Below, piece after piece: positions 15,463 to 32,455 of a stretch of DNA of 37,691 nucleotides. Origin of the DNA: Sinomonas atrocyanea (GTDB taxonomy: Bacteria > Actinomycetota > Actinomycetes > Actinomycetales > Micrococcaceae); the NCBI RefSeq assembly GCF_030812675.1, contig NZ_JAUSTE010000019.1, positions 1 to 37,691 of the forward strand, in the 5' to 3' direction. Made by a program: the position numbers and the translations under genes. The notes below the pieces were generated by a model. The model was given only the letters and a program-made list of their open reading frames with translations. It was not told where the DNA came from and made no database searches. The first letter of the stretch is position 1. Every line of letters begins with the position of its first letter.

Positions 15463-15466
15463 CACC

Positions 15467-17850: not shown

Positions 17851-17880
17851 TTGCTCCATGGCCGCACCCATCGGTAGAAT
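17851..17880 (+). promoter_or_regulatory. Internal promoter of the E1-E2 operon
   Basis: TTGCTC (17851-17856) and a near-consensus TAGAAT (17875-17880) are 18 bp apart, just after the phosphatase gene. The -10 overlaps a perfect GAAT-N4-ATTC palindrome, so a bound regulator should block RNA polymerase. Confidence 0.65.
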
Positions 17881-17907
17881 TTCAATTCAGATCAAGAATA
17901 TTTACTC
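17877..17907. promoter_or_regulatory. Candidate SorC-type operator pair before E1-alpha
   Basis: Two copies of a palindrome are seen: GAAT-TTCA-ATTC (17877-17888, perfect) and GAAT-ATTT-ACTC (17896-17907, one mismatch), with centres 19 bp apart. The same motif occurs near 28751, 31222 and 32444. Assignment to the SorC regulator at 31319 is inference. Confidence 0.6.
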
Positions 17908-17920
17908 AAAGCGAGGAATG

Positions 17921-18907
17921 ATGGATCTCTCCCCAACCACCCAGCTGGAGATGCAGCGGCGCATGCTGCGGATCCGCCGCTTCGATGAGCGGGCCTCGCG
18001 CATGGTCAAGCGCGGGCAGATCCCGGGAACCGTGCACACGAGCATCGGCCAGGAGGCCCAGGTCGTAGGCGCCTGCATGGCGCTCGGCGACGGCGACTAC
18101 ATGTCCGGGAACCACCGCAGCCACGGGCACCCGATCGGGAAGGGCTCGCCGCTGGGCCCGCTGATGGCCGAGCTCGTGGGCAAGGCCACCGGAGTGTGTC
18201 AGGGCAAGGGCGGCTCCCTGCACCTTGCGGACTTCGCCGTCGGCAGCCTGGGGGAGTCGGGCATCGTCGGCTCCTCGATCCCGATCGCCACGGGTGCGGC
18301 GCTGTCGAGCAAGGTGCTCGGCAACGGCAAGGTCTCTCTGGCGTTCTTCGGGGACGGCGCCGCCAACCAGGGCTGCCTGTACGAGGCGATGAACCTCGCC
18401 GGCGTCTGGAAGCTGCCCGTCGTCTTCCTCTGCGAGAACAACCAGTACGCGCTCTCGACCCCGGCCCACACGGTCACCTCCGGCGTCATCGCCGAGCGCG
18501 CCGCCGGATTCGGCATGCCCGGCGTGCGCGTCGAGGACGGCCAGGACGTCCTCGCGGTCCACGAGGCCGTGGCCGAGGCGGTCGAGCGCGCCCGCCGCGG
18601 AGAGGGCCCCTCCCTCGTGGAGGTGGTCACCTACCGCTTCAACGAGCATTCCGAGGGCCTGCGCCTCGGCACCGACTACCGCGACGCGAGCGAGAAGGCG
18701 GCCTGGGTCGAGCGTGACCCGATCGTCCTGTTCCGCCAGCATCTCGAACGTGAAGGGGTGGCCTCCGCCGAGGAGCTGGACGCCCTCGAGGCCGAGGTCA
18801 TGGCCGAGGTCGACGAGGCGGTGCGCTTCACCGACGAGAGCCCCTACCCGGACCCCAGCGTCGCCTTCAAAGACCTCTACACCGAACCGATCGGAGCGAT
18901 CGCATGA
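17921..18907 (+). CDS. TPP-dependent 2-oxoacid/acetoin dehydrogenase E1 alpha subunit
   Basis: The 328-aa protein is the alpha subunit of a PDH/AcoA-type thiamine-diphosphate dehydrogenase. The TPP/Mg motif starts GDG at 144-146 and ends CENNQYALS (Asn173/174). RSHGHPIGKG and CQGKGGSLHLAD are standard E1-alpha segments. With E1-beta it would oxidatively transfer an acyl or glycolyl-like group from a keto or acyloin substrate to the lipoyl domain. I place the start at the second of two tandem ATGs (17918/17921) after GCGAGGA. A far-upstream in-frame ATG (17858) lies inside the promoter and is rejected. It overlaps the E1-beta start by ATGA. The partner set (aldolase, split E2) is unlike ordinary PDH or acetoin operons. 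Confidence 0.9.
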   Translation: MDLSPTTQLEMQRRMLRIRRFDERASRMVKRGQIPGTVHTSIGQEAQVVGACMALGDGDYMSGNHRSHGHPIGKGSPLGPLMAELVGKATGVCQGKGGSLHLADFAVGSLGESGIVGSSIPIATGAALSSKVLGNGKVSLAFFGDGAANQGCLYEAMNLAGVWKLPVVFLCENNQYALSTPAHTVTSGVIAERAAGFGMPGVRVEDGQDVLAVHEAVAEAVERARRGEGPSLVEVVTYRFNEHSEGLRLGTDYRDASEKAAWVERDPIVLFRQHLEREGVASAEELDALEAEVMAEVDEAVRFTDESPYPDPSVAFKDLYTEPIGAIA

Positions 18908-19950
18908 CTGTCATGAGCTACCTCGGCGCCATCGGTGCCGCCCAGCGCGAGGCCATGGAGGCCGACGAGCGGGTCGTCATCATCGGCGAGGACGTCGAGG
19001 CCAACGTCTACGGCACCACGGGCGCCGGCAAGTCCCGCAAGGACAAGGGCGACTTCCTGGAGATGTTCGGGTCCAACCGGATCCGCAACACCCCGATCTC
19101 CGAGGAGGTCATCGTCGGTTCGGCTATCGGCGCCGCGATGACGGGCCTGCGCCCCATCGTGGACCTCTCGTACTCGAGCTTCCTGTACATGGCCATGGAC
19201 CAGTTCGTGAATCAGGCGGCCAAGAACCGGTACATGTTCGGCGGCCAGGCCTCCATCCCCGTGGTCTTCCGCTCGGCGATGTTCTATGGGCTCAACACCG
19301 GAGCGCACCACTCGGACCGCCCGTACCCGATGTTCATGAACGTCCCCGGGCTGAAGATCATCGTTCCCGCCACCCCGTACGACGCCAAGGGGCTCCTGCG
19401 CACTGCGGTCGACACCGACGACCCGGTGCTGACCTTCGAGGCCTGCATGCTCTGGGGGAGCAAGGGCGAGGTGCCCGAGGAGGAGTTCTGGATCCCGTTC
19501 GGCCAGGCCCGAGTGGCACGCCAGGGGAGCGATGTCACGGTGGTGGCGATCTCCAGCGCCGTGCCCGAGGCCCTCGCGGCGGCAGAGGCCCTGGCAGAGG
19601 ACGGCCTCTCGGTCGAGGTGATCGACCCGCGCACCCTCGTGCCGTTCGACACTGAGGCGGTGATCCGGTCCGTGCAGCGCACCGGCCGGCTCGTGATCGC
19701 CGATCCCGCGCACCGCACGTGCTCCGCGGCGGCGGAGATCTCGGCGATCGTCGCGGAGGAGGCCTTCGAGTCGCTCAGGGCGCCGATCATGCGGGTCACG
19801 ACGCCGGACACGCAGATCCCGTTCAGCCCGGCGCTGGAGAAGCAGCTGTACCCAAACCGGGCCAAGATCGAGGACGCCATCCGGCGGGTCACCGGCCTGA
19901 TGGCGAGCACCTCCAACCCAGAACTGACGTCGCCCGCGCCGCGGATGTGA
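18904..19950 (+). CDS. TPP-dependent 2-oxoacid/acetoin dehydrogenase E1 beta subunit
   Basis: This 348-aa transketolase-like beta subunit (Transket_pyr plus C-terminal domain) shows VIIGEDVEANVYG with the TPP-activating acidic residue, NTPISEEVIVGSAIGAAM, VPGLKIIVPATPYDAKGLL and the C-terminal VIDPRTLVPFD. The substrate-side loop usually reading like QHSQ-x-x-E is AHHSDRPYPMF here, suggesting a substrate other than pyruvate or acetoin; that comparison is from memory. The start is coupled to E1-alpha (ATGA). It is followed after 36 bp by the lipoyl-domain gene, which has its own strong ribosome-binding site, consistent with a need for more carrier domain. Confidence 0.91.
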   Translation: MTVMSYLGAIGAAQREAMEADERVVIIGEDVEANVYGTTGAGKSRKDKGDFLEMFGSNRIRNTPISEEVIVGSAIGAAMTGLRPIVDLSYSSFLYMAMDQFVNQAAKNRYMFGGQASIPVVFRSAMFYGLNTGAHHSDRPYPMFMNVPGLKIIVPATPYDAKGLLRTAVDTDDPVLTFEACMLWGSKGEVPEEEFWIPFGQARVARQGSDVTVVAISSAVPEALAAAEALAEDGLSVEVIDPRTLVPFDTEAVIRSVQRTGRLVIADPAHRTCSAAAEISAIVAEEAFESLRAPIMRVTTPDTQIPFSPALEKQLYPNRAKIEDAIRRVTGLMASTSNPELTSPAPRM

Positions 19951-19986
19951 CGGTCCTACAGAACACCGATTGAAGGAGAGAAAGAC

Positions 19987-20229
19987 ATGGCTAGAGTCGA
20001 GGTCCTGCTGCCGCAGTGGGGTATGGGCATGAGCGAGGGCACCGTTGCCACGTGGCTCAAGAACGTCGGCGACAGCGTCGCCGAAGACGAACCGCTCGCC
20101 GAGGTCGAGGCGGAGAAGGTCGAGGAGACCCTCGAGTCTCCCGCCTCCGGCGTCCTGGCCGAGATCGTCGTCCCCGAGGGCGAGACCGTCGAGGTCCGCG
20201 CCGTGCTGGCCTACATCGAGACGGCCTGA
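19987..20229 (+). CDS. Free-standing lipoyl (biotinyl-lipoyl-like) domain protein
   Basis: The 80-aa protein is a single lipoyl domain with nothing attached. It begins EVLLPQWGMGMSEGTVATWL, and the hairpin EAEKVEETLESP exposes the lipoylation Lys44. In normal E2 proteins this domain is fused N-terminally to a peripheral-subunit-binding domain and catalytic core; here the catalytic core is a separate gene 0.9 kb downstream with an aldolase gene between. It should be lipoylated, shuttle between E1 and E2, and be re-oxidised by an E3 not encoded in the window. AAGGAG lies 9 bases before the ATG. A lipoate-protein ligase homologue lies at 35631 in the same proposed regulon. Confidence 0.93.
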   Translation: MARVEVLLPQWGMGMSEGTVATWLKNVGDSVAEDEPLAEVEAEKVEETLESPASGVLAEIVVPEGETVEVRAVLAYIETA

Positions 20230-20259
20230 CCGGGCCGAGAGCAGGAAGGGACAGGGACC

Positions 20260-21126
20260 ATGTCACAGGTTGACCCCCGCCAGATTGTCGACGAGGCCAC
20301 CAGCGGCGGCTACGCCGTCGGAGCGTTCAACATGCACAACGAGGAGACCACCGAGGCCCTCGTCAGGGCTGCCGAGCGCGCCCAGTCTCCGGTCTTCCTC
20401 CAAGTCGGACGGGCGATCGTCCCGCACATGGGCCTCAAGAAGGCCTACGAGATGACCCGGCGGATAGCCGAGGAATCGGACGCGGACTACGTCATCCACC
20501 TGGACCACGGCCCGTGGGACGAGGTCTTCGAGGCGATCAAGCTCGGCTTCACGTCCATCATGTACGACGGCGCGCACCTTCCGTTCGAGGAGAACATCCG
20601 CACCACCCGCCGGGTGGTCGAGGTGGCCCACGCCTTCGGCATCCCCGTTGAGGCCGAGCTGGGCAAGATCCCCAACGCCGACGAACAGGTCGACTGGTCC
20701 TCGTACTACACCGACGTGGCCCAGGCCGAGCGGTTCGTGGCCGAGACCGGGGTCGACTTCCTCGCGATCTCCGTGGGCATCGTCCACGGCGTGCCCCTCG
20801 CCAAGCCGCAGCCGCTCGACATCCAGCGCGTCAAGCAGATCGAGGCCGCGGTCGGCATCCCCCTGGTCCTGCACGGCGCCTCCGGGGTGCCCGACAACGA
20901 GATCCTCGCCGCGATGGCCGCCGGCGTGCACAAGTTCAACGCCGACACGGACCTCCGCCTCGCCTTCCGCTCGGGCATCGAGGACGTCTGGGCCCAGGGC
21001 GACCGCCAGCTCGAGGAGGCCATGGCAGAAGGCCGCGAGCGCATGATCGAGGCAACCGTCCAGAAAATGAAGCTCTACGGCTGTGCCGGCAAGGCCCAGC
21101 ACCGCCGACAGCTGGTCCAGCAGTGA
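20260..21126 (+). CDS. Class II (zinc) ketose-bisphosphate-type aldolase
   Basis: The 288-aa aldolase belongs to the GatY/KbaY/IolJ-like F_bP_aldolase family. Zinc ligands are His83 (HLDHG), His176 (VGIVHG) and His205 (VLHGASG); catalytic Asp82 sits beside the first. The phosphate loops around VHGVP, HGASG and KFNADTDLR indicate a dihydroxyacetone-phosphate-type donor. It would cleave a phosphorylated ketose to a triose phosphate plus an aldehyde. The exact ketose is unknown, and length is normal. It lies between the lipoyl-domain and E2-core genes, and its stop overlaps the E2 start as GTGA, implying stoichiometric coupling with the dehydrogenase complex. Confidence 0.92.
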   Translation: MSQVDPRQIVDEATSGGYAVGAFNMHNEETTEALVRAAERAQSPVFLQVGRAIVPHMGLKKAYEMTRRIAEESDADYVIHLDHGPWDEVFEAIKLGFTSIMYDGAHLPFEENIRTTRRVVEVAHAFGIPVEAELGKIPNADEQVDWSSYYTDVAQAERFVAETGVDFLAISVGIVHGVPLAKPQPLDIQRVKQIEAAVGIPLVLHGASGVPDNEILAAMAAGVHKFNADTDLRLAFRSGIEDVWAQGDRQLEEAMAEGRERMIEATVQKMKLYGCAGKAQHRRQLVQQ

Positions 21127-21791
21127 CCACCGAGCAGCGCGAGGACAGCGTCACCACCCCCCTCAAGGGCATCCGGCGCACGGCCGCGCGGCGGATGACG
21201 GCCGCCTGGGGCGCGCCGGCATTCCACCTCTCGACGAGCGCTGACATGGGAGCGGCGCTCTCCGTGAAGGAGCGCGCCCCGGGGGCCACGGTCACGGACG
21301 CCATCCTCGCCGCCTGCGCGGCGGCGCTCCTGGAGCATCCCGCGATCAACGCCCACTACGCCGACGAGGCCGTGACGGCCTTCGGCCAGGTCAACCTCGG
21401 CCTCGCCGTCGACACCCCGGCGGGACTCATGGTCCCGGTCGTCAAGGATGCGGCCCGGCTCGACCTGACGGGCATCGCGGAGGCGAGGCGCGACCTCGCC
21501 CAGCGTGCCCGCCAGGGAAGCCTGACGATGGCGGACGTCTCGGACGGGACCTTCACCGTCTCCAACCTGGGCATGCTGGGCATCGACTACTTCGATGCCA
21601 TCCTCAACGTGCCCCAGGTGGCGATTCTCGCCATCGGCACCACGCGCGAGGAGCAGGTCAGGGATCGCGACGGCACTATCAGCTGGCGCCCTCGGGCCCG
21701 GATCACCCTGACGTGCGACCACCGGGCCGTGGACGGCGCGACCGGCGCCCGATTCCTCACCGCGGTGAAGGACCGCCTGGAGACCGCATAG
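21123..21791 (+). CDS. Free-standing E2 acyltransferase catalytic domain
   Basis: The 222-aa protein is the catalytic domain of dihydrolipoamide acyltransferases (2-oxoacid_dh). It starts with TPLKGIRRTAARRMT, contains NLGLAVDTPAGLMVPVVKDA and FTVSNLGMLG, and ends with the active-site motif DHRAVDG (His200, Asp204). It has no lipoyl domain and no recognisable peripheral-subunit-binding domain, so it depends on the separate 80-aa lipoyl protein. It would transfer the acyl group from lipoyl to CoA. The GTG start overlaps the aldolase stop. This is the last gene of the plus-strand block and a strong terminator follows. Confidence 0.92.
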   Translation: MTTEQREDSVTTPLKGIRRTAARRMTAAWGAPAFHLSTSADMGAALSVKERAPGATVTDAILAACAAALLEHPAINAHYADEAVTAFGQVNLGLAVDTPAGLMVPVVKDAARLDLTGIAEARRDLAQRARQGSLTMADVSDGTFTVSNLGMLGIDYFDAILNVPQVAILAIGTTREEQVRDRDGTISWRPRARITLTCDHRAVDGATGARFLTAVKDRLETA

Positions 21792-21817
21792 CGCGGGCTG
21801 AGGCCACTGCAGCATAA

Positions 21818-21848
21818 GGCGCCCCCGGCCGGGAAGGCCGGGGGCGCC
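21818..21848 (+). terminator. Terminator of the E1-E2-aldolase operon
   Basis: A perfect 13-bp stem (21818-21830 with 21836-21848) has loop GGGAA and is followed by CTCTTGCC. It is 26 bp after the E2 stop. Confidence 0.9.
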
Positions 21849-22287
21849 CTCTTGCCGTGCCCAGGCAGGAAGTGGGCAGCGACGCTGATCTACGACGGAA
21901 CACCCTGTGAGCGGACTGTGGCCTGTCCTCCCGGCTTAACACAGCGAGGGCCCGCACACATTCTCGCTCCCTGCCGGGATCCCTCGACCGCGGCGGCTGG
22001 GGCCTCCTCGAGCAGGACCAGGGGAAACCGCGACCATGAGGCCCCTATCGGCTGACGACGTGCGTTCCACTAACTGGTCGATGACCACTGCCGGATGGCC
22101 TGCACGTCACCACAAGCAGGAGGGCGCCCTGCACCAGCATCAGGTCGCGCCGCCGAGGTGCTCGGGCCGGAAGGTCCAGGACAGCAGGCCCCACCAGCAT
22201 CGACGGCGACCCGTCCTCTTGCGCTCCGTGGGGCCGGGTGGGTGGCCGGCGAGCGACCACCCGGCCCCGAAACCCGGAAAGACAAAT
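21849..22287. other. Convergent intergenic region without a recognised gene
   Basis: About 440 bp between the two converging operons. The open frames here resemble nothing and lack good ribosome-binding sites. An inverted repeat (GGGGCCGGGTGG at 22230-22241 with CCACCCGGCCCC at 22257-22268, 15-nt loop) may be an extra bidirectional terminator. Confidence 0.5.
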
Positions 22288-22331: not shown

Positions 22332-22347
22332 GTTCGCGTCGTCGCCG

Positions 22348-23811
22348 TCAGTGGAGGCGGCTCACCACCTCGCGGATGAGGGGCCACACGCGCGCCACCG
22401 AGGTGAAGTTCACCGACTCCTTGGGGGAGTGGAGGTCATGGAGCTCGGTGCCGATCGAGATGATGTCGAGGCCTGGCAGCTTCTGGCTGAACATGCCCAG
22501 CTCGAGGCTGCACTGGGAGACGTGGACCTCGGGATCGGTGCCCATGACCTCCGAGTAGGCCTTCCGGGCGACGTCGAGGAGCTTCGAGTCCGGCCGGTAG
22601 GGGAACTCCGGCGCGTCGAGCCCGTACTGCTCGACCGACGCGCCGCCGCCCGCGAGGGCGACCAACGAGCGCACCCTGTCGAGGATCTCGTGCTTGCGCG
22701 AGGTGACGGCCGCCGTGATGGTCGACATGAGCCGCGCACCGTCCGCCGTGGTGCGGACCGTCCCGAGGTTGTTCGAGCTCTCCACGATGCCCGGCACCGT
22801 CAGGCTCCAGCTCAGGACGCCGTTCGGGATCAGCGCGGTGAGCCGCGCGAAGCGTGCCCCCGCAGCCGCCGAGAAGGCGTGCCCCGGGCGCTCCGCCGAA
22901 TCGAGCTCGAGCCGGATGCCCGGATCGGCCTTGCGGTACTCGTTGAGCAGCGTGCGCTCGAGTTCGGAGACGGCGTCGGCCACGCCGGAAACGTTCTCCG
23001 GCCGCAGCGACAGCACGACCTGGGCATCCGCCGGAATGGCGTTGTTCTGCGCTCCACCGTAGGGGTCGCTGATCCTGACGTCGAACCGGTCCATCAGGGT
23101 CGTCAGAGCCCGCGCCAGAATGAGGACGGCGTTCGCACGCTCCAGATGGATGTCGAATTCGCAGTGGCCGCCAGCCAGGCCGCGGACCTTGAGCAGGCGC
23201 GTCTCGGTGTGCGTGTCCGGCACCGGCGCCCACTCTGCGGGCACGTCGACGGTGAAGGTCACGTCGCCACTGCAGCCGGCGAGGATCTCCTTGTCGGTGA
23301 TCCAGTTGAAGTCGATCATCCGCTTCCCGGACAGCTTCGACGTGTCGAACTGGGCGGCTCCCACCTTCCCCTTCTCCTCCATGGCGGTCAGGACCGCCTC
23401 GAGCGGCGGATGCGGGATGTCCTTCGAGTCCAGGAGCGCAAGGATGTAGGAGACGCCGATGCCGTTGTCGGCCCCGAGGGAGGTCCCGTTCGCCGTGACG
23501 AAGTCACCGTCGAGGAGGAGCTCGATCGGATCCTGTTCGAAGTCGTGGGTGACGCCGTCCTCCTTCTCGCACACCATGTCCAGGTGCCCGTGAAGGATCA
23601 GCGGCGGTGCGCCCTCCAAGCCATGCTGACCGGGCTTCTTCACGAGGACACAGTGCAGATCATCCTGCGTCGCCTCGAGGCCACGCTCGCGGGCGAAGTC
23701 GACGACCCAGTCGGCGACCTCCTTCTCATTGCCGGAGCCGCGGGGGATGTTGGACAGGCTCTCGAAGAACGAGAACACCTCTTGGGGCTGGATCGATGTG
23801 AGGGTGGGCAT
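22348..23811 (-). CDS. pepD: Aminoacyl-histidine dipeptidase PepD (M20C)
   Basis: The 487-aa metallopeptidase of family M20C (PepD, beta-Ala-His dipeptidase type) has metal ligands in HGHLDMV (His76, Asp78) and GADNG (Asp115), and the general base/metal Glu pair at 145-146 (AMEEKG). Further family segments are VRGLAGGHCEFDIH, GGAQNNAIP and a C-terminal HDLHSPKESVNF histidine region. It is expected to be cytoplasmic and to cleave Xaa-His and other dipeptides. GAAGGAA precedes the ATG. It lies 85 bp after the importer permease gene on the same strand, separated by a strong hairpin, so joint expression would need read-through. Its link to the sugar system is unclear. Confidence 0.94.
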   Translation of the reverse strand: MPTLTSIQPQEVFSFFESLSNIPRGSGNEKEVADWVVDFARERGLEATQDDLHCVLVKKPGQHGLEGAPPLILHGHLDMVCEKEDGVTHDFEQDPIELLLDGDFVTANGTSLGADNGIGVSYILALLDSKDIPHPPLEAVLTAMEEKGKVGAAQFDTSKLSGKRMIDFNWITDKEILAGCSGDVTFTVDVPAEWAPVPDTHTETRLLKVRGLAGGHCEFDIHLERANAVLILARALTTLMDRFDVRISDPYGGAQNNAIPADAQVVLSLRPENVSGVADAVSELERTLLNEYRKADPGIRLELDSAERPGHAFSAAAGARFARLTALIPNGVLSWSLTVPGIVESSNNLGTVRTTADGARLMSTITAAVTSRKHEILDRVRSLVALAGGGASVEQYGLDAPEFPYRPDSKLLDVARKAYSEVMGTDPEVHVSQCSLELGMFSQKLPGLDIISIGTELHDLHSPKESVNFTSVARVWPLIREVVSRLH

Positions 23812-23834
23812 CGGGCTGTTCCTTCTCTGGCTGC

Positions 23835-23896: not shown

Positions 23897-24913
23897 CTAC
23901 TTCACCACGCCCTGGCGCTTCCTGCCCATGGTCAGGGCTACGGCGACGATGATGACGAGCCCGTAGACGAGGCTCTGGGCCTGGGGGCTGATGCCCACCG
24001 CAGTCGCGCCGATGGGCACGAGGCCCACGGTGAGGGAGCCGAAGACGATGTTGATCGGATTCGTGACACCGCCGGTGATGGCCGTGCCGCCCACAATCGC
24101 GGCGGTGATGCCCGGGAGCAGCAGATCGCTGCCGAGCCCGAAGGAGGAGGCGGCGCCCGCCTGGGCGATGACGAGCACACCGGCCAGCCCGGACAGCAGG
24201 CCCGAGAGGGCGAACGCTGCCACCTTCAGCCAGCGCGTCCTGAGGCCGGAGAAGAGGGCGCCGCTCTCGTTGAGGCCAACGGCGGTCATCCCCTGCCCGG
24301 CCCGGGTGAACCGGAGCACGGCCCAGAGAACGACGGCGCACACGACGCCGACCCAGAAGGCCATGGGCAGGCCCGCGATCGCGGTGCCGAACAGCGGGGC
24401 GAGCAGGTCCGTGTTGGCGGTGGCGTAGACGGTTGTCGCGTGGCTGACCTCGAGTGATGCAGCCTGCACGATGCCGAGCGTGCCGAGCGTGAGGGCGAAC
24501 GACGGGATCTGGCCGAAGGCGATCAGGAACCCGTTCACGGCGCCGATCAGGGTCACCACGACGAGCGTGAGCAGGGGAGCCGCGGGCCCGAGGGGCTCCA
24601 GCGCCTGCGCGAGGATCATCGCAGAGAGAACCACGGTGGCGGCGTTGGAGAGGTCGATGGAGCCGAGGTTGAGCACCATCGCCTGGCCCAGGGCCACGAG
24701 CAGGATGGGCGCTGCCTGCACGGTCAGGATGCCGAGACCGCCGCCCGTGACGAAGGTCGGAGTCAGGACGGCCACCAGGGCGAACAGGGCGATGAAGACG
24801 GCGATTGGGCCCACCGTCTGCCATAGGCCGGCGGGACGAAGGTTCGCCCGCTTCTGCTTGCCTGAGGAGGGGGCGGAGAGCGGCTCCGGTCGGAGAACGG
24901 CGTTGTGTGTCAT
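23897..24913 (-). CDS. CUT2 sugar ABC importer permease (second system, permease B)
   Basis: The 338-aa BPD_transp_2 membrane protein is predicted by eye to have 8-10 helices. Landmarks are LNLGSIDLSNAATVV, GAVNGFLIAFGQIPSFALTLGTLG and IVGGTAITGGVTNPIN, the last replacing the usual GGTSLxGG. It pairs with the non-identical permease encoded at 26468-27499, so this system uses a heterodimeric channel, as the Lsr (AI-2) and some polyol importers do. It starts 4 bp after the ATPase stop without a strong ribosome-binding site, suggesting translational coupling. Confidence 0.93.
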   Translation of the reverse strand: MTHNAVLRPEPLSAPSSGKQKRANLRPAGLWQTVGPIAVFIALFALVAVLTPTFVTGGGLGILTVQAAPILLVALGQAMVLNLGSIDLSNAATVVLSAMILAQALEPLGPAAPLLTLVVVTLIGAVNGFLIAFGQIPSFALTLGTLGIVQAASLEVSHATTVYATANTDLLAPLFGTAIAGLPMAFWVGVVCAVVLWAVLRFTRAGQGMTAVGLNESGALFSGLRTRWLKVAAFALSGLLSGLAGVLVIAQAGAASSFGLGSDLLLPGITAAIVGGTAITGGVTNPINIVFGSLTVGLVPIGATAVGISPQAQSLVYGLVIIVAVALTMGRKRQGVVK

Positions 24914-24917
24914 GGGA

Positions 24918-26471
24918 TCACACCATCTTTTCCAGGAGGTCTAGGGCTGTGGGCGACTCGACGGAGAGGTCGAAGCTGCCGGTGATCTCGCCGTCGCGCA
25001 TCACGAGGACGTCGTCGCCCATCTCGAGCGCCTCCTCGAGCGTGTCGGGGAGGAGGACGACGGCGGCGCCGGCAGTCTGAGCGGCACGGATCTGTTCGTT
25101 CACCGTCTGGGCGGCTCCGGGGTCGAGGCCTCTGAGGGGGTGGTCGAGGAGGAGGATCTTCAGCTCGTCAGATGCGAGCCATTTGGCGAGGACCACCTTC
25201 TGCTGGTTGCCGCCGGAGAAACTCGCGAGCCGGAGGCGCGGGTTGCGCGGCCGGATGTCGAGCCGCTCGAACCAGTCGGCTGCCGCCTTCGCCTGCGTGC
25301 GTCGCTTCAGGAAGGGGCCCCACGCGGCCTTCCCGGGGTGGGCGAGGGTGAGGTTCTCGGCGGCGCTGAAGCCGCCGACCATGCCTTCCACCTTCCGCTC
25401 CGCGGGGATGTAGGCCAGGCCCGAGCGCACCGCCCTGCGAATGGACCACGATCGGACGGCACCGCCGGCGACGGCGATCGTGCCCGAGTCGAACGTCTCG
25501 GCGCCGAAGATCGCTCGGCTGAGGGATTCGCGTCCTGAGCCGAGGGCGCCGACGATGGCTGTGCACCGGCCCGGGGCGAGGGAGAAGGAGATGTCCTTGA
25601 ACTGGCCCTTCTTCTTCAGGTCCTTGACCTCGAGCACGGCAGGCTCGGGCGCCTTCCGCTCGGCCCGCTGCTTCGGGGTGGCCTTGGCCTCGTGGCCGAT
25701 CATGAGCCGGAAGAGGTCGTCCTCGGTTACGGATTCCCGCCGCCGGTCGGCCACGACTTCTCCGTGACGCATGACAATCACGCGGTCGCAGATCCGGAGG
25801 ATCTCGTCGAGTCGGTGCGAGACGAAGAGCACCGAGCCGATGCGCTTGAGGGCGCGGATCTCGCGCTCGAGGATCTCCGTCTCGTTTCGCTCCAGGACTG
25901 CCGTGGGTTCGTCGAGGATGACCAGGGGCGCGGCATGGACGGCCTCGTCGACGCGCAGCGCGCGGGCGATCTCCACCATCTGGCGGTCCACGAAGGACAG
26001 GTCGCCCACGGTCGTGCGGGGATCGATGGTGGAGCCGACACGCTCGAGGACCTTCGAGGCCTCCTGGTTGAGGCGGTTCCAGCGGTAGAAGCCGTACCGG
26101 GTGGCCGCATCCTTCGAGGAGAGGGCGTTCATCGCGATGTTCTCGGCCACGGAGAGGTTCGTCAGGAGCGACTGCTCCTGGTGGACGACGCCGATCCCGG
26201 CTGCCACCGCGTCCTGCGGCCGGCGGAACTTCACCTCGCGGCCGTCGGCCTCGATCACGCCCGAGTCGGGCTGGTGGAGGCCGGTGAGGATCTTCAGGAG
26301 CGTGGACTTGCCGGCACCGTTCTCACCGATCAGGCCGACGACTTCGTGCCGGGGGATCTCCAGGGAGATGTCCTTCACGGCCTGGACGGGGCCGAAGGAC
26401 TTCGAGACGCGGGTGAGCTTCAGGGCGGGGCTGTTGAGTGCTGTGGCGGGAGCCACGGAGGCGTGGGTCAT
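24918..26471 (-). CDS. CUT2 sugar ABC importer double ATPase (second system)
   Basis: The 517-aa RbsA-type ATPase has two fused nucleotide-binding domains. Domain 1 has Walker A GENGAGKST (49-57), a modified signature DLSFVDRQMVEIARAL and Walker B LVILDEPTA. Domain 2 has degenerate Walker A GALGSGRES, full signature FSGGNQQKVVLAKWL, and Walker B LLLDHPLRG, where the usual catalytic Glu is His. This substitution after the Walker B Asp leaves domain 1 as the likely hydrolytic site. The start overlaps the upstream permease stop (ATGA). It lies between the two permease genes of the operon. Confidence 0.94.
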   Translation of the reverse strand: MTHASVAPATALNSPALKLTRVSKSFGPVQAVKDISLEIPRHEVVGLIGENGAGKSTLLKILTGLHQPDSGVIEADGREVKFRRPQDAVAAGIGVVHQEQSLLTNLSVAENIAMNALSSKDAATRYGFYRWNRLNQEASKVLERVGSTIDPRTTVGDLSFVDRQMVEIARALRVDEAVHAAPLVILDEPTAVLERNETEILEREIRALKRIGSVLFVSHRLDEILRICDRVIVMRHGEVVADRRRESVTEDDLFRLMIGHEAKATPKQRAERKAPEPAVLEVKDLKKKGQFKDISFSLAPGRCTAIVGALGSGRESLSRAIFGAETFDSGTIAVAGGAVRSWSIRRAVRSGLAYIPAERKVEGMVGGFSAAENLTLAHPGKAAWGPFLKRRTQAKAAADWFERLDIRPRNPRLRLASFSGGNQQKVVLAKWLASDELKILLLDHPLRGLDPGAAQTVNEQIRAAQTAGAAVVLLPDTLEEALEMGDDVLVMRDGEITGSFDLSVESPTALDLLEKMV

Positions 26472-27499
26472 TTGACGATCCTCAATCTGCTGCGATGGGG
26501 CCAGGCTGCGGCGAGGACAGCCGCGATGAGGACTGCTCCGGACACCGCGGACTGGAGGTTCGGGCTGACGCCGCTGAGGATGAGCCCGTTGTTCAGGACG
26601 GTGAGCATCAGCACCCCGACTGCGGTGCGGAGGATCCCGCCCTTCCCTCCTGCGAGGGAGGTCCCGCCGATAACGACGGCGGCGATGGTGAGGAAGAGGT
26701 TGCCCGTTCCGACCGTGGCCGAGCCCGCGCCGAGCTGCAGGCTGGCGAGGATTCCCGCGCCGGCGCTGCAGGCCCCTGCAGCCACGAAGACGTAGACCTT
26801 GTACCTGCCGACGGGCACGCCGTTGGCCCGGGCGATCTCCTCGCTGTCGCCGATCGCGTAGGCGAAGCGGCCGAGGCGGGTGAACCGGGTGACGCCGATG
26901 CCGAGCAGGGCCACCATGGCGGCAAGGAGGAACGAGTTCGGAATGCCGAGGGTGAGGCTCGTCGGCCAGGACTTGAGTCCCTGGTCGGAGAGGAACGGGA
27001 TGGACGCCTGGCCGAACAGCAGCGTGGCGATGCCGAGCCCGACGAACCAGACGCCGAGGGTCACGATGAAGGACGGCACCTTGAGGCGGGTGTGCACGAG
27101 GCCGTTGACCAGTCCAAGTCCGGCACCGACTGCCAGGGCGGCCGGAATGGCCCAGAAGCCTAGGTCGGCAGTGCCGCGGCTGTTGGCCGAGAGGAGGACG
27201 AAGGCCATGCCTGCGGCCCCCATGATGCCCTCCACGGAGAGGTCGATGGAGCCGGTCAGGATGACGAGGGTCGACCCGACTCCGATGACCAGGGGAAGTG
27301 CGGCGTGGTCTAGGATCGTCCGGGCGTTGTCCGGGCTGAGGAAGGATGTGGGGTTGAGCGCCGCGAACACCACGATCAGGGCGATCAGGGCGGCGGCCTC
27401 GCCGAGGTTCTTGACGTCGAAGCGGCGCCGGCTCGGGGTGGGGCTCTTCTGGGCGGGTACTGGGTCTAGGAGGCCCGTGCCGCTGTCGTTTGCTGTCAT
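26468..27499 (-). CDS. CUT2 sugar ABC importer permease (second system, permease A)
   Basis: The 343-aa BPD_transp_2 permease has a polar N-terminus to about residue 30, then multiple hydrophobic helices. Family motifs are VILTGSIDLSVEG, GLVNGLVHTRLKVPSFIVTLG, AIGDSEEIARANGVPV and VIGGTSLAGGKGG. It forms the channel together with permease B. The ATG follows AGGTGAGAG. It is the first gene after the binding protein and is separated from it by a 14-bp-stem hairpin, a common device to keep binding-protein mRNA more abundant than the membrane components. Confidence 0.93.
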   Translation of the reverse strand: MTANDSGTGLLDPVPAQKSPTPSRRRFDVKNLGEAAALIALIVVFAALNPTSFLSPDNARTILDHAALPLVIGVGSTLVILTGSIDLSVEGIMGAAGMAFVLLSANSRGTADLGFWAIPAALAVGAGLGLVNGLVHTRLKVPSFIVTLGVWFVGLGIATLLFGQASIPFLSDQGLKSWPTSLTLGIPNSFLLAAMVALLGIGVTRFTRLGRFAYAIGDSEEIARANGVPVGRYKVYVFVAAGACSAGAGILASLQLGAGSATVGTGNLFLTIAAVVIGGTSLAGGKGGILRTAVGVLMLTVLNNGLILSGVSPNLQSAVSGAVLIAAVLAAAWPHRSRLRIVK

Positions 27500-27526
27500 T
27501 GCTCTCTCACCTGCTGTTGTCGCGGT

Positions 27527-27567
27527 GCGCGGCGGCTCCGCCCGGACTCCTGACGGAGCCGCCGCGC
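27527..27567 (-). terminator. Hairpin between binding-protein and permease genes
   Basis: A perfect 14-bp stem (27527-27540 with 27554-27567) has a 13-nt loop and lies directly after the binding-protein stop. With no T-run, a partial terminator or 3' mRNA stabiliser is likelier than a full stop. Confidence 0.7.
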
Positions 27568-27574
27568 GGGGCCG

Positions 27575-28702
27575 TCAGGGCAGCTTCTCCGGACCGCCGC
27601 CGACCAGGGGGGTGGGAGGGGTGTCCCACGGGCCGTCCTTCACCAGGTCGTCCATCCAGCCGTCGATGTTGCTGTCGTACTTGGTGAAGTCGGAGAGGTT
27701 CTGCGGGGTCACGCAGCTGAGCTTGAAGAGGCTGTCTCGCTTCTCGTGGGGCAGCTCCGAGGGCTTGATCGCACCGGTCGCCGCCTGGTAGGCGGTGTAC
27801 AGGCCGATCGCTGCTGCCATGAAGCCGCGGTGGAAGGTCTCGCCCACGATCGCGTCGTTGCCCATGTGCTTCTGCATGTCGGCGACCTCCTGCGGGTAGA
27901 GGCCGTCCGTGGCGAACTTGACGTCGTTGATGCGCCCGGCGTTCTGCACGGCCTGGATCGCACCGATGGTCATGCCGTCGTCGGCCGACCAGATGCCGTT
28001 GATCTGGTTGCCGTACTTCGCCATGAGGTTCTGGGTCACGCCCACCGCCTGCTGGGGGTCCCAGTTGGCTGGCTGCGTGTCGAGCAGGTGCACGTTCGGG
28101 TAGGCCTTCAGAGCCTCCTTCAGCCCGGCCACGCGGGTTTGGCTCGTGGTGCTGTCCTGCACGCCGGCGAGGGCGACGATGTTCCCCTTCTCGCCGATGC
28201 TCTTCGCGAGGGCGTCCGCCGTGCACTCCCCGCTCTGGACCCCGGAGTACTTCTGGAATGCGACGAAGTTGTCGCCGACGTTCCAGGGCTCGTAGTTGTC
28301 CGGCTTGTTCCACCACACGCTCACGTAGCCGCCGGCGGCCTTGACCGCATTGACGATCGGCGGCGCATCCGAGCTCGCGACCGTGTTGACCATGAGTGCG
28401 ACCTTCTTGCCTTGGGCGAGGATGGCCTGGATCTTCGAGATCTCCGTCTGCGAGCTCCCCTGGGAGTCGACGATCTCCAGTGGGACGCCGAGCTTCTTCG
28501 ACAGGGCCTGGGCCCCCTGGATCATCGATGCCATGTAGGGGTTGGTGGTGTTGATGACCGAGGCGACGAGGACGATGTCCTTCTTGTCGATCGGCTTGGA
28601 CGACGCAGCCGACGTCGAGGTGCACGCCGTCATCGCCGCCAGCAGGCCGACTGCGGCCGCACCGGCCGCCAGCCGCCGACGAATCGTATTCCTGAGGGGC
28701 AT
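27575..28702 (-). CDS. CUT2 sugar ABC importer, binding lipoprotein (second system)
   Basis: The 375-aa lipoprotein has a twin-basic-rich N-terminus (RNTIRRR), a hydrophobic core and lipobox MTAC with Cys27. A ribose-type type I binding fold follows, starting DIVLVASVINTTNPYMASM and containing VALAGVQDSTTSQTRVAGLKEAL and GIWSADDGMTIGA. Aromatic residues in VSVWWNKPDNYEPWN may line the ligand site. The protein is longer than typical RbsB and has a C-terminal extension (SNIDGWMDDLVKDGPWD). AAGGAG lies 6 bases before the ATG. A TTGACA promoter and a perfect GAAT-N4-ATTC palindrome lie upstream, so its operon is proposed to be SorC-controlled. The ligand is unknown. Confidence 0.93.
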   Translation of the reverse strand: MPLRNTIRRRLAAGAAAVGLLAAMTACTSTSAASSKPIDKKDIVLVASVINTTNPYMASMIQGAQALSKKLGVPLEIVDSQGSSQTEISKIQAILAQGKKVALMVNTVASSDAPPIVNAVKAAGGYVSVWWNKPDNYEPWNVGDNFVAFQKYSGVQSGECTADALAKSIGEKGNIVALAGVQDSTTSQTRVAGLKEALKAYPNVHLLDTQPANWDPQQAVGVTQNLMAKYGNQINGIWSADDGMTIGAIQAVQNAGRINDVKFATDGLYPQEVADMQKHMGNDAIVGETFHRGFMAAAIGLYTAYQAATGAIKPSELPHEKRDSLFKLSCVTPQNLSDFTKYDSNIDGWMDDLVKDGPWDTPPTPLVGGGPEKLP

Positions 28703-28740
28703 CAGTGACTCCTTCGTAAGAGATGGCCCGAGATTGCCTG

Positions 28741-28770
28741 CAGGCCCTCTGAATAAGAATTCAGGGCCTG
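28741..28770. promoter_or_regulatory. Candidate SorC-type operator before the second importer
   Basis: GAAT-AAGA-ATTC (28751-28762) is a perfect copy of the shared palindrome. It is nested in a larger inverted repeat, CAGGCCCT (28741-28748) with AGGGCCTG (28763-28770). Its centre lies 29.5 bp after the promoter -10. Confidence 0.6.
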
Positions 28771-28785
28771 CATTTGGATTCTTCG

Positions 28786-28815
28786 AGTGTGCGGCACGTC
28801 ACTTCTACGTGTCAA
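28786..28815 (-). promoter_or_regulatory. Promoter of the second CUT2 importer operon
   Basis: On the minus strand a perfect TTGACA (28815-28810) is followed after 18 bp by CACACT (28791-28786). Transcription would start about 75 bp upstream of the binding-protein gene. Confidence 0.55.
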
Positions 28816-28860
28816 GGGATCAAATCCCCGCGCTGCCGGAAGGAAGCCGGCGGGACGAAG

Positions 28861-28895
28861 AGAGGGAGGATCCTGCGGGGCAGGATCCTCCCTCT
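28861..28895 (-). terminator. Terminator of the BKACE-epoxide hydrolase operon
   Basis: A perfect 16-bp stem (28861-28876 with 28880-28895) has a 3-nt loop and is followed on the minus strand by TCTTCGTCCC. It is 18 bp beyond the epoxide hydrolase stop. Confidence 0.9.
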
Positions 28896-28913
28896 GTGGG
28901 TGGGGGCGAGGCG

Positions 28914-30158
28914 TCAGCGGAAGGTGCGGAAGAAGGTCCTCACGTCGTCGACATACGTGTCTGGCACCTCGAGGGGGGCGAAGTGGCCGCCCTCGTCATG
29001 GACCCTGTACTGCTGGAGGTTGAAGTACTTCTCGGTCCACGTGCGCGGCGGCTTGTAGATCTCCCCCGGGTAGATGGACACCGCCGTGGGGGCCCCCACC
29101 ACGGGCAGTCGGTCGTGGCTGGGTCGCCACGGGTTCCCGCGGCATTCCCAGTAGTAGCGCGAGGAGGTCCCGCCGGTGTTGGTGAGGAAGTAGACGGCCG
29201 CGGTCGTGACAAGGTCCTCCTTGGGCCACACCCGCTCGAAGGGCTCGGTGCCGACACCTCGCTCCTCGAGTCCCCAGAAGTAGCGCTTCTCGGTGATCCA
29301 CGCCAGCTGGCCGGCGGGCGAGTCGGCGACGAGGGCCGCGAGCGTCTGCGGCTTGGTCAGCTGGATCTCCCCGTAGCCACTCTCGTTCTGCACGAAAAGC
29401 TTGCCGCGTTCGAACCATCCCTTCTCGGTCGAGTCGTCGTACTCCTCCGCGGCCGGAAGGCCAAGGACGGGGTCGAACTTCACCCCCGGAGGGGCGTCGG
29501 GGTGCTCGGCGAGGTAGTGGCTCATCTGGGCCGGGAAGTGCGTGTAGACACCGAAGACATCTTTCTCGTACTTGTGGCCGTGCTGCTGGGCCACGAGGGC
29601 GCCCCAGTCCCCTCCCGCGGTGGCGTACTTCTCGTAGCCGAGCACCTTCTTCATGAGCGTGTTCTCGAGGTCGGCAGTCCGCCACCAGTTCCACCCCGGC
29701 TCCGTGAGCGGAGAGGAGAAGCCGTAGCCGGGGAGGGAGATGAGGACGACGTCGAAGGAGTCCGCAGGGTCACCGCCGTAGCTCGCGGGGTCGGTCAGGG
29801 GGCCGATTACCTTGCGCAGGTCCCAGAACGTCCAGGGCCACCCATGGTGGATGAGGAGGGGCATCGGGTTGGGCCCCTTCCCCTTCGCATGGATGAAGTG
29901 GAGTGGCACGCCCATCAGGTCCGTCTTGAAGTGGGGCAGCTCATTCATCCGCCGCTCCACGTCCCGCCAGTCGTATTCGTCGATCCAGTAGTCGACGAGC
30001 TGCTTGTGGTACGCCGTGTTGTAGCCGTACCGCCAGTCGTCGTTGGCGAAGTCCTGCGGATAGCGGGTCTTGCGGAGCCGCTCATACATGTCTTTGAGGT
30101 CTTCTTCGGGGATGGAGATCGTGAAGGGACGGATCTCGCCTTCGTGGTGCGCAGCCAT
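28914..30158 (-). CDS. Epoxide hydrolase (EHN domain plus alpha/beta hydrolase)
   Basis: The 414-aa protein has an N-terminal EHN (epoxide hydrolase N-terminal) domain (about 9-120) and an alpha/beta-hydrolase domain related to microsomal epoxide hydrolase. The oxyanion motif HGWP is at 105-108, nucleophile Asp184 lies in GGDWGAL, and the catalytic His is in DEGGHFAPLEVP near the C-terminus. No signal peptide or anchor is seen. It would add water to an epoxide giving a diol, although family members can have other hydrolase activities. GAGGAGG lies 4 bases before the ATG at 30158. It is 70 bp downstream of the BKACE gene, likely co-transcribed, and ends in a strong terminator. Confidence 0.92.
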   Translation of the reverse strand: MAAHHEGEIRPFTISIPEEDLKDMYERLRKTRYPQDFANDDWRYGYNTAYHKQLVDYWIDEYDWRDVERRMNELPHFKTDLMGVPLHFIHAKGKGPNPMPLLIHHGWPWTFWDLRKVIGPLTDPASYGGDPADSFDVVLISLPGYGFSSPLTEPGWNWWRTADLENTLMKKVLGYEKYATAGGDWGALVAQQHGHKYEKDVFGVYTHFPAQMSHYLAEHPDAPPGVKFDPVLGLPAAEEYDDSTEKGWFERGKLFVQNESGYGEIQLTKPQTLAALVADSPAGQLAWITEKRYFWGLEERGVGTEPFERVWPKEDLVTTAAVYFLTNTGGTSSRYYWECRGNPWRPSHDRLPVVGAPTAVSIYPGEIYKPPRTWTEKYFNLQQYRVHDEGGHFAPLEVPDTYVDDVRTFFRTFR

Positions 30159-30228
30159 TGCGCCTCCTCGTGAGATGGGGGGGGTAGGAGGATGAAGTTC
30201 GTGGGCGCCAAGGGGCGCCGGGTGCCGT

Positions 30229-31176
30229 TCAGGCGATGTTGTAGAGGGCCCGTGCTTCCTGCTGGGTGGCGATGGGGCGGCCCACTTCGCGGGCGATCTC
30301 CTGCACCTGCTGGAGGAGCTCGAGGTTGGTCGGGTTGCGTGCCGGGTCGTAGAAGAGCTCAAGGCCGGTCTTGACGTGGCCGCCCAGCTCGATGGCCCTG
30401 CGCAGGATCCCGGTGTCGTCCAGCGCACCCTGGCCCCAGACCGAGACGTACCACGGATGCTTGACCTCGGCCTCCTCGATCATCCAGAGGTAGTAGTAGA
30501 GGCTTTCGAGGCTCGGCTTCATGCCGTTGGTGCCGATGGGCTCGGTGGCGGTGAGGCCGTAGTCGCCGATGAGGTAGAAGTCCCACATCGAACCGGGGGT
30601 CGAGAGCCCGCGGTTCACGTAGTGCATCGCGTGTCGCAGATGTCCGGGCTCGTAGATGCCGAAGACCATGGCAAGATCGCGTTCTCGGAACATCTTGACC
30701 TGGCTGGCGACGCGCTGGAAGTTGAATCCGAACTCTGGCCCCGAGAGGTACCCCTCCTGGTCGGTGTCCACTGCGAAGAGCGTCAGACCGGTGTCGACGC
30801 AGCCGATCCGCACGTTCGCGCCTTCGTAGAGGAACGGCACATGCTCCAAGCCGTTCTCCTCCGGCTGCAGCCGGAGGTTGTTGCAGGTCGTGGGGTACCA
30901 GGTGATGTCCGGGTACTTGGCAAGAACGCTCTCCCACGTGCGCATGTAGTCCTTGTAGGCGTTCTCGCCGAGCAGGTCGAAGCTCGTGTTGTGGGCGTGG
31001 ATGGCGCCCGCGCCGGCCTCCCAGCACCGGATGGCGTCCTCGGCGATCTCCTTGTAGGTGATCGGGGTGTTAGGGTTCATCTCCTTGGTGCGGACCCCGT
31101 TGATGTGGGACTCGATGACCACCGGATAGTCCCACTGCGGTTTCATGTCCGCGTACTTGTCCAGTGCAGTAGGCAC
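30229..31176 (-). CDS. BKACE-family (DUF849) beta-keto acid cleavage enzyme
   Basis: The 315-aa protein belongs to the BKACE/DUF849 family, whose members condense a beta-keto acid with acetyl-CoA to give acetoacetate and a new acyl-CoA. The TIM-barrel start VVIESHINGVRT, the segment TPITYKEIAEDAIRCWEAGA and the metal-binding pair His60/His62 (IHAHN) are visible. A MVFGIYEPGHLRHAM segment and GGHVKTGLE come later. It departs from classic members, which read HLHAR at the metal site, so the substrate is open. The GTG at 31176 follows GGAGG with 5 bases spacing; an in-frame ATG at 31254 lies within the promoter/operator region and is rejected. It is followed by the epoxide hydrolase gene. Confidence 0.88.
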   Translation of the reverse strand: MPTALDKYADMKPQWDYPVVIESHINGVRTKEMNPNTPITYKEIAEDAIRCWEAGAGAIHAHNTSFDLLGENAYKDYMRTWESVLAKYPDITWYPTTCNNLRLQPEENGLEHVPFLYEGANVRIGCVDTGLTLFAVDTDQEGYLSGPEFGFNFQRVASQVKMFRERDLAMVFGIYEPGHLRHAMHYVNRGLSTPGSMWDFYLIGDYGLTATEPIGTNGMKPSLESLYYYLWMIEEAEVKHPWYVSVWGQGALDDTGILRRAIELGGHVKTGLELFYDPARNPTNLELLQQVQEIAREVGRPIATQQEARALYNIA

Positions 31177-31221
31177 GGCTACCTCCAAGAGCGACGGACC
31201 GAGCGGTCCGATGACAGTGGT

Positions 31222-31256
31222 GAATTGATATTCGTAGATGTACTCAATATGCACTC
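31222..31256. promoter_or_regulatory. Candidate SorC-type operator pair before BKACE
   Basis: GAAT-TGAT-ATTC (31222-31233, perfect) and CAAT-ATGC-ACTC (31245-31256, two mismatches) have centres 23 bp apart. They lie just downstream of the -10, the perfect site centred 29.5 bp from it. Confidence 0.6.
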
Positions 31257-31286
31257 ATCGTGCGATGCGGATCACACTGCTGTCAA
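31257..31286 (-). promoter_or_regulatory. Promoter of the BKACE-epoxide hydrolase operon
   Basis: On the minus strand a perfect TTGACA (31286-31281) is followed after 18 bp by CACGAT (31262-31257). It lies between the SorC gene and BKACE, so BKACE need not depend on read-through from the regulator. Confidence 0.55.
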
Positions 31287-31318
31287 CGGTCCATGGGGAA
31301 TCGATGCCCTCGGGGCCG

Positions 31319-32323
31319 TCAGGGGGCGGTGCGGGCCGCTGCCTGTGCGGCGTCGGCGGGTGCGCCGGCCGGTTCACCCAGGAGGAAGGCCGCGGTTCCC
31401 GCATCGGTGACGAGGGTGTCCACCCAGCCTCCGGCCACCGCGGCGCGGACCGCCTGGTGCTTGCGTTCCCCACCGGCCACGGCCCACCGGTGGCGGGCGT
31501 TCCGGAGCTGGTCCAGCGTCACCCCGACCACGAGGTCTTCGAGCTCGGAGTCGATGGGATTCCCCTCCGCGTCGATGAAGTGCAGGCACACCTCGCCGAC
31601 CGCGCCCCGCTCCCGGACATGCTCGAACTGCTCGTCCGTGAAGAAGTTGTCTCCGGAGCGCAGCTCGGGGTCCCGCTCGCAGGTGCCGATGCCGACGAGC
31701 GCGATGTCGATGGAGTCCAGCATCTCCATGGCCATGCGCACATACGGGTCCCGCGCGATGAGGAGCTCCTTGATCTCGCGGCTGGGCACGACTCCCGGGG
31801 TCCGGAGGAAGACCGGCTGGGCGCCGGTCAGCGTGGCGAACTGCTGGGTGGAGCGGGCCGCATCGTGCTGCAGCTCGGGCGGGCCGAGGTCACCGAGGGT
31901 CTCCACCACGTACTCGCCGCGCGTCCGCAGGGGCAGGAGGGCATCGACCATGAGCCGCAGCGTCTTGCTCCACGAGGTGAAGGCGATCGTCTTCACCTCG
32001 AACGCCAGCTCGTAGAGGAGCGATGCCATGGTGTGGGCGAGATCCTTGTTGACCTCGGACTCGTCGTGGCTGACCGTGTCGACCACGTGCACCTCGCTGA
32101 GCCCGTACCGCGCCTCGATCTGCTCCTCGAGCTCGGCATGGATGTGCTGGGGCACTGCGACGACGGTCCGGACGATCGAGGCCTCTTCGGCCTGGGCGAG
32201 CAGCCGGGAGACGCGCGACTGGGAGATCTGGAGACGCTTGGCGATCTCCGTCTGGCGCACGCCGTGCGTGTGGTAGAGCCGCGCCACTTTGATCATCAGA
32301 CGCTGGGTGTCATTGTCAGCCAT
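31319..32323 (-). CDS. SorC/DeoR-family sugar-sensing transcriptional regulator
   Basis: The 334-aa regulator has an N-terminal helix-turn-helix (about 5-45; GVRQTEIAKRLQISQSRVSR) and a C-terminal SorC sugar-binding domain (about 60-310), with IAFTSWSKTLRLMVDAL, DIALVGIGTCE and GDNFFTDEQ. Family members (SorC, DeoR, LsrR, EryD) bind phosphorylated sugars or polyols and leave or change grip on operators. The ATG at 32323 follows GGAG; the open frame extends upstream but across the divergent promoter. It is divergent from the GlpD-family operon. Palindromes of one type at four promoters in the window make it the best candidate local regulator. EryD-like control of polyol genes is a reasonable analogy, not a demonstration. 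Confidence 0.92.
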   Translation of the reverse strand: MADNDTQRLMIKVARLYHTHGVRQTEIAKRLQISQSRVSRLLAQAEEASIVRTVVAVPQHIHAELEEQIEARYGLSEVHVVDTVSHDESEVNKDLAHTMASLLYELAFEVKTIAFTSWSKTLRLMVDALLPLRTRGEYVVETLGDLGPPELQHDAARSTQQFATLTGAQPVFLRTPGVVPSREIKELLIARDPYVRMAMEMLDSIDIALVGIGTCERDPELRSGDNFFTDEQFEHVRERGAVGEVCLHFIDAEGNPIDSELEDLVVGVTLDQLRNARHRWAVAGGERKHQAVRAAVAGGWVDTLVTDAGTAAFLLGEPAGAPADAAQAAARTAP

Positions 32324-32392
32324 GGTGCTCCGTTTCTTGCCTGTCAGGGAGGAGTATCGCGCGGCGGGCGCCGTCACGGGAACCCCCGACCC

Positions 32393-32421
32393 TTGACACC
32401 GGGATCGCCGCAGCAGACACT
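32393..32421 (+). promoter_or_regulatory. Promoter of the GlpD-kinase-lipoate ligase operon
   Basis: A perfect TTGACA (32393-32398) is followed after 17 bp by GACACT (32416-32421). The predicted 5' leader of about 55 bases contains the operator at 32444. Confidence 0.55.
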
Positions 32422-32443
32422 CGTAAATGTCCATGCGACTGCT

Positions 32444-32455
32444 AAATATTTATTC
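32444..32455. promoter_or_regulatory. Candidate SorC-type operator in the divergent region
   Basis: AAAT-ATTT-ATTC differs from GAAT-N4-ATTC at one base and is centred 28.5 bp after the -10. It sits in the 162-bp space between the regulator and GlpD-like genes and could serve both. Confidence 0.5.

Follow-up and report, generated by a model that had tools for sequence, protein, structure and literature searches.

The window analysed here, the 37,691-nt stretch of Sinomonas atrocyanea that makes up an entire contig (C19), carries a sugar-type catabolic gene cluster and, within it, the gene of a SorC-family regulator. The same paired switch, a tandem of palindromes resembling GAAT-N4-ATTC, precedes five gene groups of this island and, judging from the DNA sequence, is most likely read by the island's own SorC-family repressor. 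The operators, the regulator and the genes of the cluster are arranged as follows.

10274-10304: tandem operator before importer 1, GCATAGCAATTT-N7-GCATAAAAACCC, 19 bp; matched by the sequence model R1 (see below) in the whole genome; counterpart pair in G162 (L008, 12813/12832)
17877-17907: tandem operator before E1-alpha, GAATTTCAATTC-N7-GAATATTTACTC, 19 bp; overlaps a TAGAAT -10 box at 17875
28751-28781: tandem operator before importer 2, GAATAAGAATTC-N7-GCATTTGGATTC, 19 bp; counterparts in L001, L003, L004 and G162
31222-31256: tandem operator before the beta-keto acid cleavage enzyme (BKACE) gene, best at 23 bp; alternative at 19 bp, GCATATTGAGTA-N7-GAATATCAATTC, on the minus strand; no R1 match
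32425-32455: tandem operator between the SorC and GlpD genes, AAATGTCCATGC-N7-AAATATTTATTC, 19 bp; counterparts in L001-L004 and G162
31319-32323, minus strand: SorC-family regulator with a Sugar-bind domain and a helix-turn-helix (HTH); longest frame from 32434, likely start Met38 at 32323
10340-13953, plus strand: importer 1 (binding protein, ATPase, permease)
13984-17829, plus strand: glycerol-1-phosphate-dehydrogenase-like (G1PDH-like) protein, FGGY kinase and HAD-IIA phosphatase
17918-21791, plus strand: E1-alpha, E1-beta, free lipoyl domain (19987-20229), class II aldolase, and E2 catalytic domain without a lipoyl domain
22348-23811, minus strand: M20 dipeptidase-like protein, downstream of importer 2
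23897-28702, minus strand: importer 2 (binding protein, permease, ATPase, permease)
28914-30158, minus strand: epoxide hydrolase (EHN family)
30229-31176, minus strand: BKACE, GTG start
32486-34126, plus strand: GlpD-like FAD dehydrogenase
34123-35634, plus strand: GlpK-like FGGY kinase
35703-36389, plus strand: lipoate-protein ligase A-like (LplA-like) protein, start uncertain
36430-37689, plus strand: second DAO/GlpD-like oxidoreductase, truncated where the contig ends

Three perfect copies of GAAT-N4-ATTC are found in the window (17877-17888, 28751-28762 and 31222-31233), each just upstream of a gene, together with one-mismatch sites at 17896-17907 and 32444-32455 and a two-mismatch site at 31245-31256. 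The earlier note had reported these six sites and the lack of a further perfect copy in the window, and all of this is correct. It had also placed every site between genes, which holds with revised gene starts (E1-alpha at 17918 or 17921, BKACE at the GTG at 31176) but not with the longest open frames, within which 17877 and 31222 fall; the start and ribosome site of BKACE resemble those in L001. The palindromes are real, but the unit is a tandem pair with 19 bp from centre to centre, not the single palindrome assumed in the note. Overlooked were the partners at 28770-28781 (one mismatch) and 32425-32436 (two mismatches), as well as a degenerate pair at 10274-10285 and 10293-10304 before the first importer. 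The four promoters first named (E1-alpha, importer 2, BKACE and GlpD-like) are right, but the count was too low, because at least five are found when importer 1 (10274/10293) is included. Four window pairs (10274/10293, 17877/17896, 28751/28770 and 32425/32444) have the 19-bp spacing, slightly under two helical turns, which is the arrangement of the paired half-operators of SorC/DeoR regulators, about two turns apart. The operator at 32425-32455 precedes the likely SorC start by about 100 bp, a distance that makes autoregulation uncertain. A one-mismatch site inside the BKACE gene, at 30724, was taken as chance.

The perfect palindrome has nine copies in the whole assembly (4,120,037 bases), and 153 sites have at most one mismatch. 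Three of the nine perfect sites are on this contig (binomial P of about 6e-5); the value of 3e-6 for the 13.4-kb stretch alone is flattered because that stretch was picked by the sites themselves. Loose sites with up to two mismatches are not raised (35 in the window versus 50 expected from shuffles), so the signal lies in position and quality, not in number, and the loose count was set aside as uninformative. For a genome scan, which the earlier note had proposed, we used the sequence-only model R1, built from 18 operators of the window, G162, L001-L004, G264, G277, G303 and G407. The tandem motif is not common: at E<=10, R1 has four matches in its own genome, all of them window operators, and since these four were among the training sequences, the result means that nothing else in 4.12 Mb scores.

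The second proposed check, a comparison of orthologous promoters, showed that other genomes keep the operators in front of the orthologous genes, together with the regulator. In G162, which belongs to the same genus, the regulator is 98% identical and pairs are present at all five promoters. Loci with regulators 71-77% identical are found in Pseudarthrobacter, Arthrobacter and one Streptomyces. The GlpD/SorC operator and the BKACE-type operator are each present in four of the four loci L001-L004; the BKACE-type operator of L002 has a spacing of 18 bp and may be a relic, BKACE and importer 2 being missing from the stretch covered. The Streptomyces locus (L005) has one cluster above threshold, before E1-alpha and best at 23 bp, where 0.07 are expected.

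A half-site matrix made from the nine window sites only was then used to scan spacings of 15-29 bp, with 30 first-order Markov random sets as the control. The held-out set consisted of G264, G277, G303 and G407 (112,687 bases; regulators 48-59% identical), and it contains 11 pair clusters versus a mean of 0.33 in the random sets, 10 of the 11 at exactly 19 bp. These ten stand before E1-alpha (four), importer 1 (two, one of them shared with a divergent regulator) and importer 2 (three), and in a gap between G1PDH and a regulator copy (one). The clusters of G264, G277 and G303 each have two related SorC genes, 48-59% identical to the window regulator (P0001), and both copies have tandem operators next to them in G277 and G303. 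An origin of the palindromes in chance or in promoter-linked AT-rich sequence fits the finding that two-mismatch matches in the window are no commoner than in shuffles, but it is contradicted by the held-out scan against random sets, the conserved 19-bp spacing and the recurrence in other families of the order, and we regard it as extremely improbable.

We also asked how the operators and the regulator are distributed together. Among 15 genomes of the genus, R1 gave 12 matches at E<=10, ten of them in the three regulator-bearing genomes: the own genome (G000) with its four, G162 with four, all in its cluster, and G561 with two. G561 was not in the training set, and its regulator, 79% identical and located between the R1 matches, was looked for only after the operators had been matched; the operator rule thus pointed to this regulator before it was sought. 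All three pair clusters of G561 have the 19-bp spacing, and they precede GlpD/SorC, the epoxide hydrolase and importer 2. In the other 12 genus genomes, no close regulator was found at E<=1e-60 in nine, and the rest have none or at best one of 28-32% identity. Among 396 genomes of the order, searched at E<=0.1 with stricter filters, eight have a match, and six of the eight are exactly the six genomes with a regulator at least 51% identical; G000, G264, G277, G303 and G407 had supplied training operators, and G342 had not. Ten order genomes with regulators of 38-43% identity have no R1 match at E<=0.1. Plasmid relatives of the regulator amount to 90 records, all below 60% identity.

This distribution bears on the possibility that the cell reads the sites with another regulator, such as a second SorC or a global regulator, and that they only coincide with the cluster. 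The genome does have a second SorC-family gene (C22:514-1293), the only other PF04198 gene found, and perfect palindromes are scattered in the 12 genus genomes that lack the regulator, 4 to 17 in each. However, the second SorC protein is 27% identical to the window regulator, and the 12 kb at the start of its contig, comprising the gene and 513 bases upstream, contain no site that scores at least 8. The tandem operators track the 31319-type regulator over both genome sets, and the window frames chosen for scanning showed no further transcription factor. Control by another regulator is therefore quite unlikely.

The protein encoded at 31319-32323 has the C-terminal domain PF04198 (E 3.2e-53; 181 bits against a cut-off of 27) and an N-terminal HTH of the DeoR subtype, as its full-length alignment to Bacillus subtilis DeoR (8r7y) runs from residue 39 (E 1.1e-39); the DNA-binding domain alone matches 7bhy with an E of 3.9e-5. 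The closest full-length relatives of solved structure are B. subtilis DeoR and Klebsiella SorC. The score against the DeoR equivalog NF053881 is 191.7 bits, below the curated cut-off of 420, so the protein is a DeoR relative, not DeoR itself.

In the available part of PMC11229326, DeoR and CggR are described as tetramers on paired half-operators, and the 39-bp DeoR operator of dra-nupC-pdp has the half-site TTGAA-N6-TTCAA; by our own reading of the operators printed there, the halves are about 22 bp (DeoR) and 20 bp (CggR) apart. The window system resembles that of DeoR, as far as this text goes, in the SorC/DeoR subfamily, the two half-operators about two turns apart, the overlap of the operator with promoter elements and the local control of catabolism, and the window motif TGAAT-N4-ATTCA can be written as TGAA-N6-TTCA, the geometry of the DeoR half-operator. 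It differs in its pathway and spacing and in having both halves recognisable, whereas the right half of the DeoR operator is degenerate (7 of 10 letters match), and the DeoR operator extends from -60 to -21, whereas the window operator is at the -10/start region. CggR at gapA, in the same portion of that paper, is similar in that a tetramer binds two palindromic halves about 20 bp apart, but it has another type of DNA-binding domain, another half-site sequence and an operator at +32 to +77. No SorC motif is found in the accessible part of the regulon survey PMC4746261.

We next examined the operators relative to the promoters. Counted from the end of the -35 box, the operator starts 24-28 bp downstream at the window promoters of both importers, BKACE and GlpD, the TTGACA of importer 1 ending 28 bp upstream; at E1-alpha, the operator overlaps the -10 box TAGAAT. 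In 35 operator-promoter rows, which were hand-chosen from the pairs found, come in many cases from near relatives and include one operator on both strands, an exact TTGACA ends 24-32 bp upstream of the operator in 25. It is present before importer 1 (3/4), importer 2 (7/8), BKACE (6/6), GlpD (6/6), the L001-type FGGY gene (2/2) and G1PDH (1/1), and absent from the rows of E1-alpha (0/7) and the second regulator (0/1). In the seven E1-alpha rows, the -10 box overlapping the first half-site is TAGAAT in five and TAGCAT in two (L030 and L032); the L005 row is too close to the end of its stretch for a -35 box to be judged. The rows leave out the 15-bp pair of L032 (15391), the 9843 pair of L005 and single sites, and the G561 pairs came later. 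The word TTGACA-N19-ACT was tried as a common promoter element and gave no match in its strict form.

With -10 boxes and start sites placed by spacing, the operators would cover the -10 box or the start site, a position that makes repression likely. Some SorC-family members activate, which counts against a repressor and in favour of an activator or a dual-acting regulator, and the SorC-GlpD operator precedes the SorC start and might serve both genes. At the four window promoters other than that of E1-alpha, however, the operators begin 24-28 bp beyond the -35 box, on the expected -10 box or further downstream, where a bound protein blocks polymerase, and activation or dual action is accordingly improbable. 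The repressor EryD likewise has its operator inside the promoter (PMC10190533). Repression has been inferred from such operator positions in the portion of PMC8579813 that was available.

Taken together, we estimate a probability of roughly 0.87 that the local SorC/DeoR-subfamily repressor binds the tandem operators and controls the whole cluster. The single regulon proposed in the earlier note is supported by the rarity and conservation of the sites and by their tracking of the regulator, but it is enlarged to five promoters with tandem units. In the proposed mechanism, the DNA-binding domains of the 31319-32323 protein would pair on GMAT-N4-ATKC palindromes, and a tetramer would bridge two palindromes 19 bp apart. 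Tandem operators over the -10/start region would thereby shut five promoters together, those of importer 1, E1-alpha, importer 2, BKACE-epoxide hydrolase and GlpD-GlpK-LplA-DAO, operons whose limits are drawn from gene spacing. A metabolite of the pathway, which is probably a polyol or ketose in phosphorylated form, would free the repressor and turn on uptake and catabolism. The arrangement offers a testable operator rule for a group of SorC/DeoR regulators of GC-rich actinobacteria: two GMAT-N4-ATKC palindromes stand at the transcription start with a spacing of 19 bp. The rule also serves to pick out the members of a pathway that has an E1/E2 complex and lipoate genes of its own.

Several observations weigh against this reading. 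The spacing of the BKACE pair (31222/31245) is ambiguous, as it scores highest at 23 bp and a 19-bp reading is also possible; a GCATATT block invariant in five aligned orthologous BKACE promoters permits the latter, and a separate class of 23-bp operator is at most tentative. R1 fails to detect the BKACE operator, and weak operators elsewhere may therefore be missed. The R1 matches in the training genomes are partly circular, and so is the count of five pair clusters in the window versus a mean of 0.03 in random sets, because the half-site matrix was built from these sites. Weak single R1 matches occur in genomes without a close regulator, two in the genus (G104, 0.32; G037, 1.4) and two in the order (0.059 and 0.074). 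A plain count of pairs in the held-out loci gives a noisy peak at 19 bp (17 pairs versus 1-12 at other spacings), and one of the two regulator copies of G264 has no adjoining pair cluster. The group with regulators of 39-43% identity, which has other gene neighbours, shows one pair cluster, at 18 bp. The recognition region SQxRVSR is common to all 19 aligned regulators, including this group, in which no 19-bp pair was detected; some relatives therefore fall outside the pair rule.

The 39-43% group perhaps uses the half-site without the pair. A perfect GAATAGAAATTC stands at L038:9331-9342, in a different gene context, and the matched start of a regulator of 43% identity follows about 60 bp downstream; the half-site may thus extend to more regulators than the 19-bp pair does. 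A pair with GAAT-N4-ATTC-like halves spaced 17 bp apart was seen at L056:3192-3220 and L052:9242-9270, in matching context, one in this genome (C7) and one in G104. It is probably the operator of a different regulator and was set aside as a regulon member, as its spacing differs and it lies outside the cluster.

EryD belongs to the SorC family, and the erythritol cluster includes an FGGY kinase. As described in the available text of PMC10190533, EryD also acts locally as the repressor of a polyol cluster, one that includes an ABC importer, and its 29-bp operator lies inside the promoter; the window cluster differs in its E1/E2 complex, the comparison being one of gene content and operator position. 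No erythritol isomerase gene turned up in the window frames scanned. The kinases and GlpD-like enzymes lead us to guess that the substrate is a C4-C5 polyol, and literature searches on the pathway found no description of it. We tentatively propose, at somewhat less than even odds, that the genes form one undescribed catabolic pathway, a rearranging gene set that moves between actinobacteria. In such a pathway, a polyol-like compound would enter through two importers, be phosphorylated by FGGY kinases and be oxidised by GlpD-like enzymes. A dedicated complex of the 2-oxoacid-dehydrogenase type, with a split E2 and lipoylation genes of its own, would cleave it to acyl-CoA, and a single SorC repressor would govern the whole set. 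The gene control itself is of an ordinary, known type, and the interest is mostly in the pathway that it delimits.

The E2 is split into a free lipoyl domain of 80 residues (19987-20229), between E1-beta and the aldolase, and a catalytic domain of 222 residues (21123-21791). A lipoate-ligase-like gene lies in the same cluster, and L001 and G162 have a lipoyl-synthase-like gene. In Pseudarthrobacter (L001:4214-6778), the lipoate ligase and the DAO/GlpD-like oxidoreductase form one 854-residue frame; they are two frames in the window. Most of the gene set recurs in rearranged order: two sugar-type importers, the G1PDH-like dehydrogenase, two FGGY kinases, the HAD phosphatase, E1-alpha and E1-beta, the class II aldolase, the E2 catalytic domain, GlpD, the epoxide hydrolase and the M20 protein, and in part LplA, DAO and BKACE. 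BKACE is present in 6 of the 21 stretches searched (L001, L003, L004, L009, L032 and L051) and was not found in the stretches covered for G264, G277 and G303, those of G264 also having no importer 2 or epoxide hydrolase.

A tRNA-Thr gene (7782-7858) precedes a gene for a tyrosine recombinase (7917-9497), and DNA similarity to the G162 stretch starts at 10236; the cluster looks like an island inserted at tRNA-Thr, and a second copy of the tRNA end was not found in the window. The G561 cluster (L051, G561:C3) is on one of the three contigs of its assembly, 60 kb long, which may be a replicon of its own. Contig C22 starts with a fragment (L059:1-171) that is 89% identical to residues 6-62 of the DAO protein and lies beside the second SorC gene, and the window contig ends inside the DAO gene (36430-37691); a DAO-like repeat perhaps broke the assembly.

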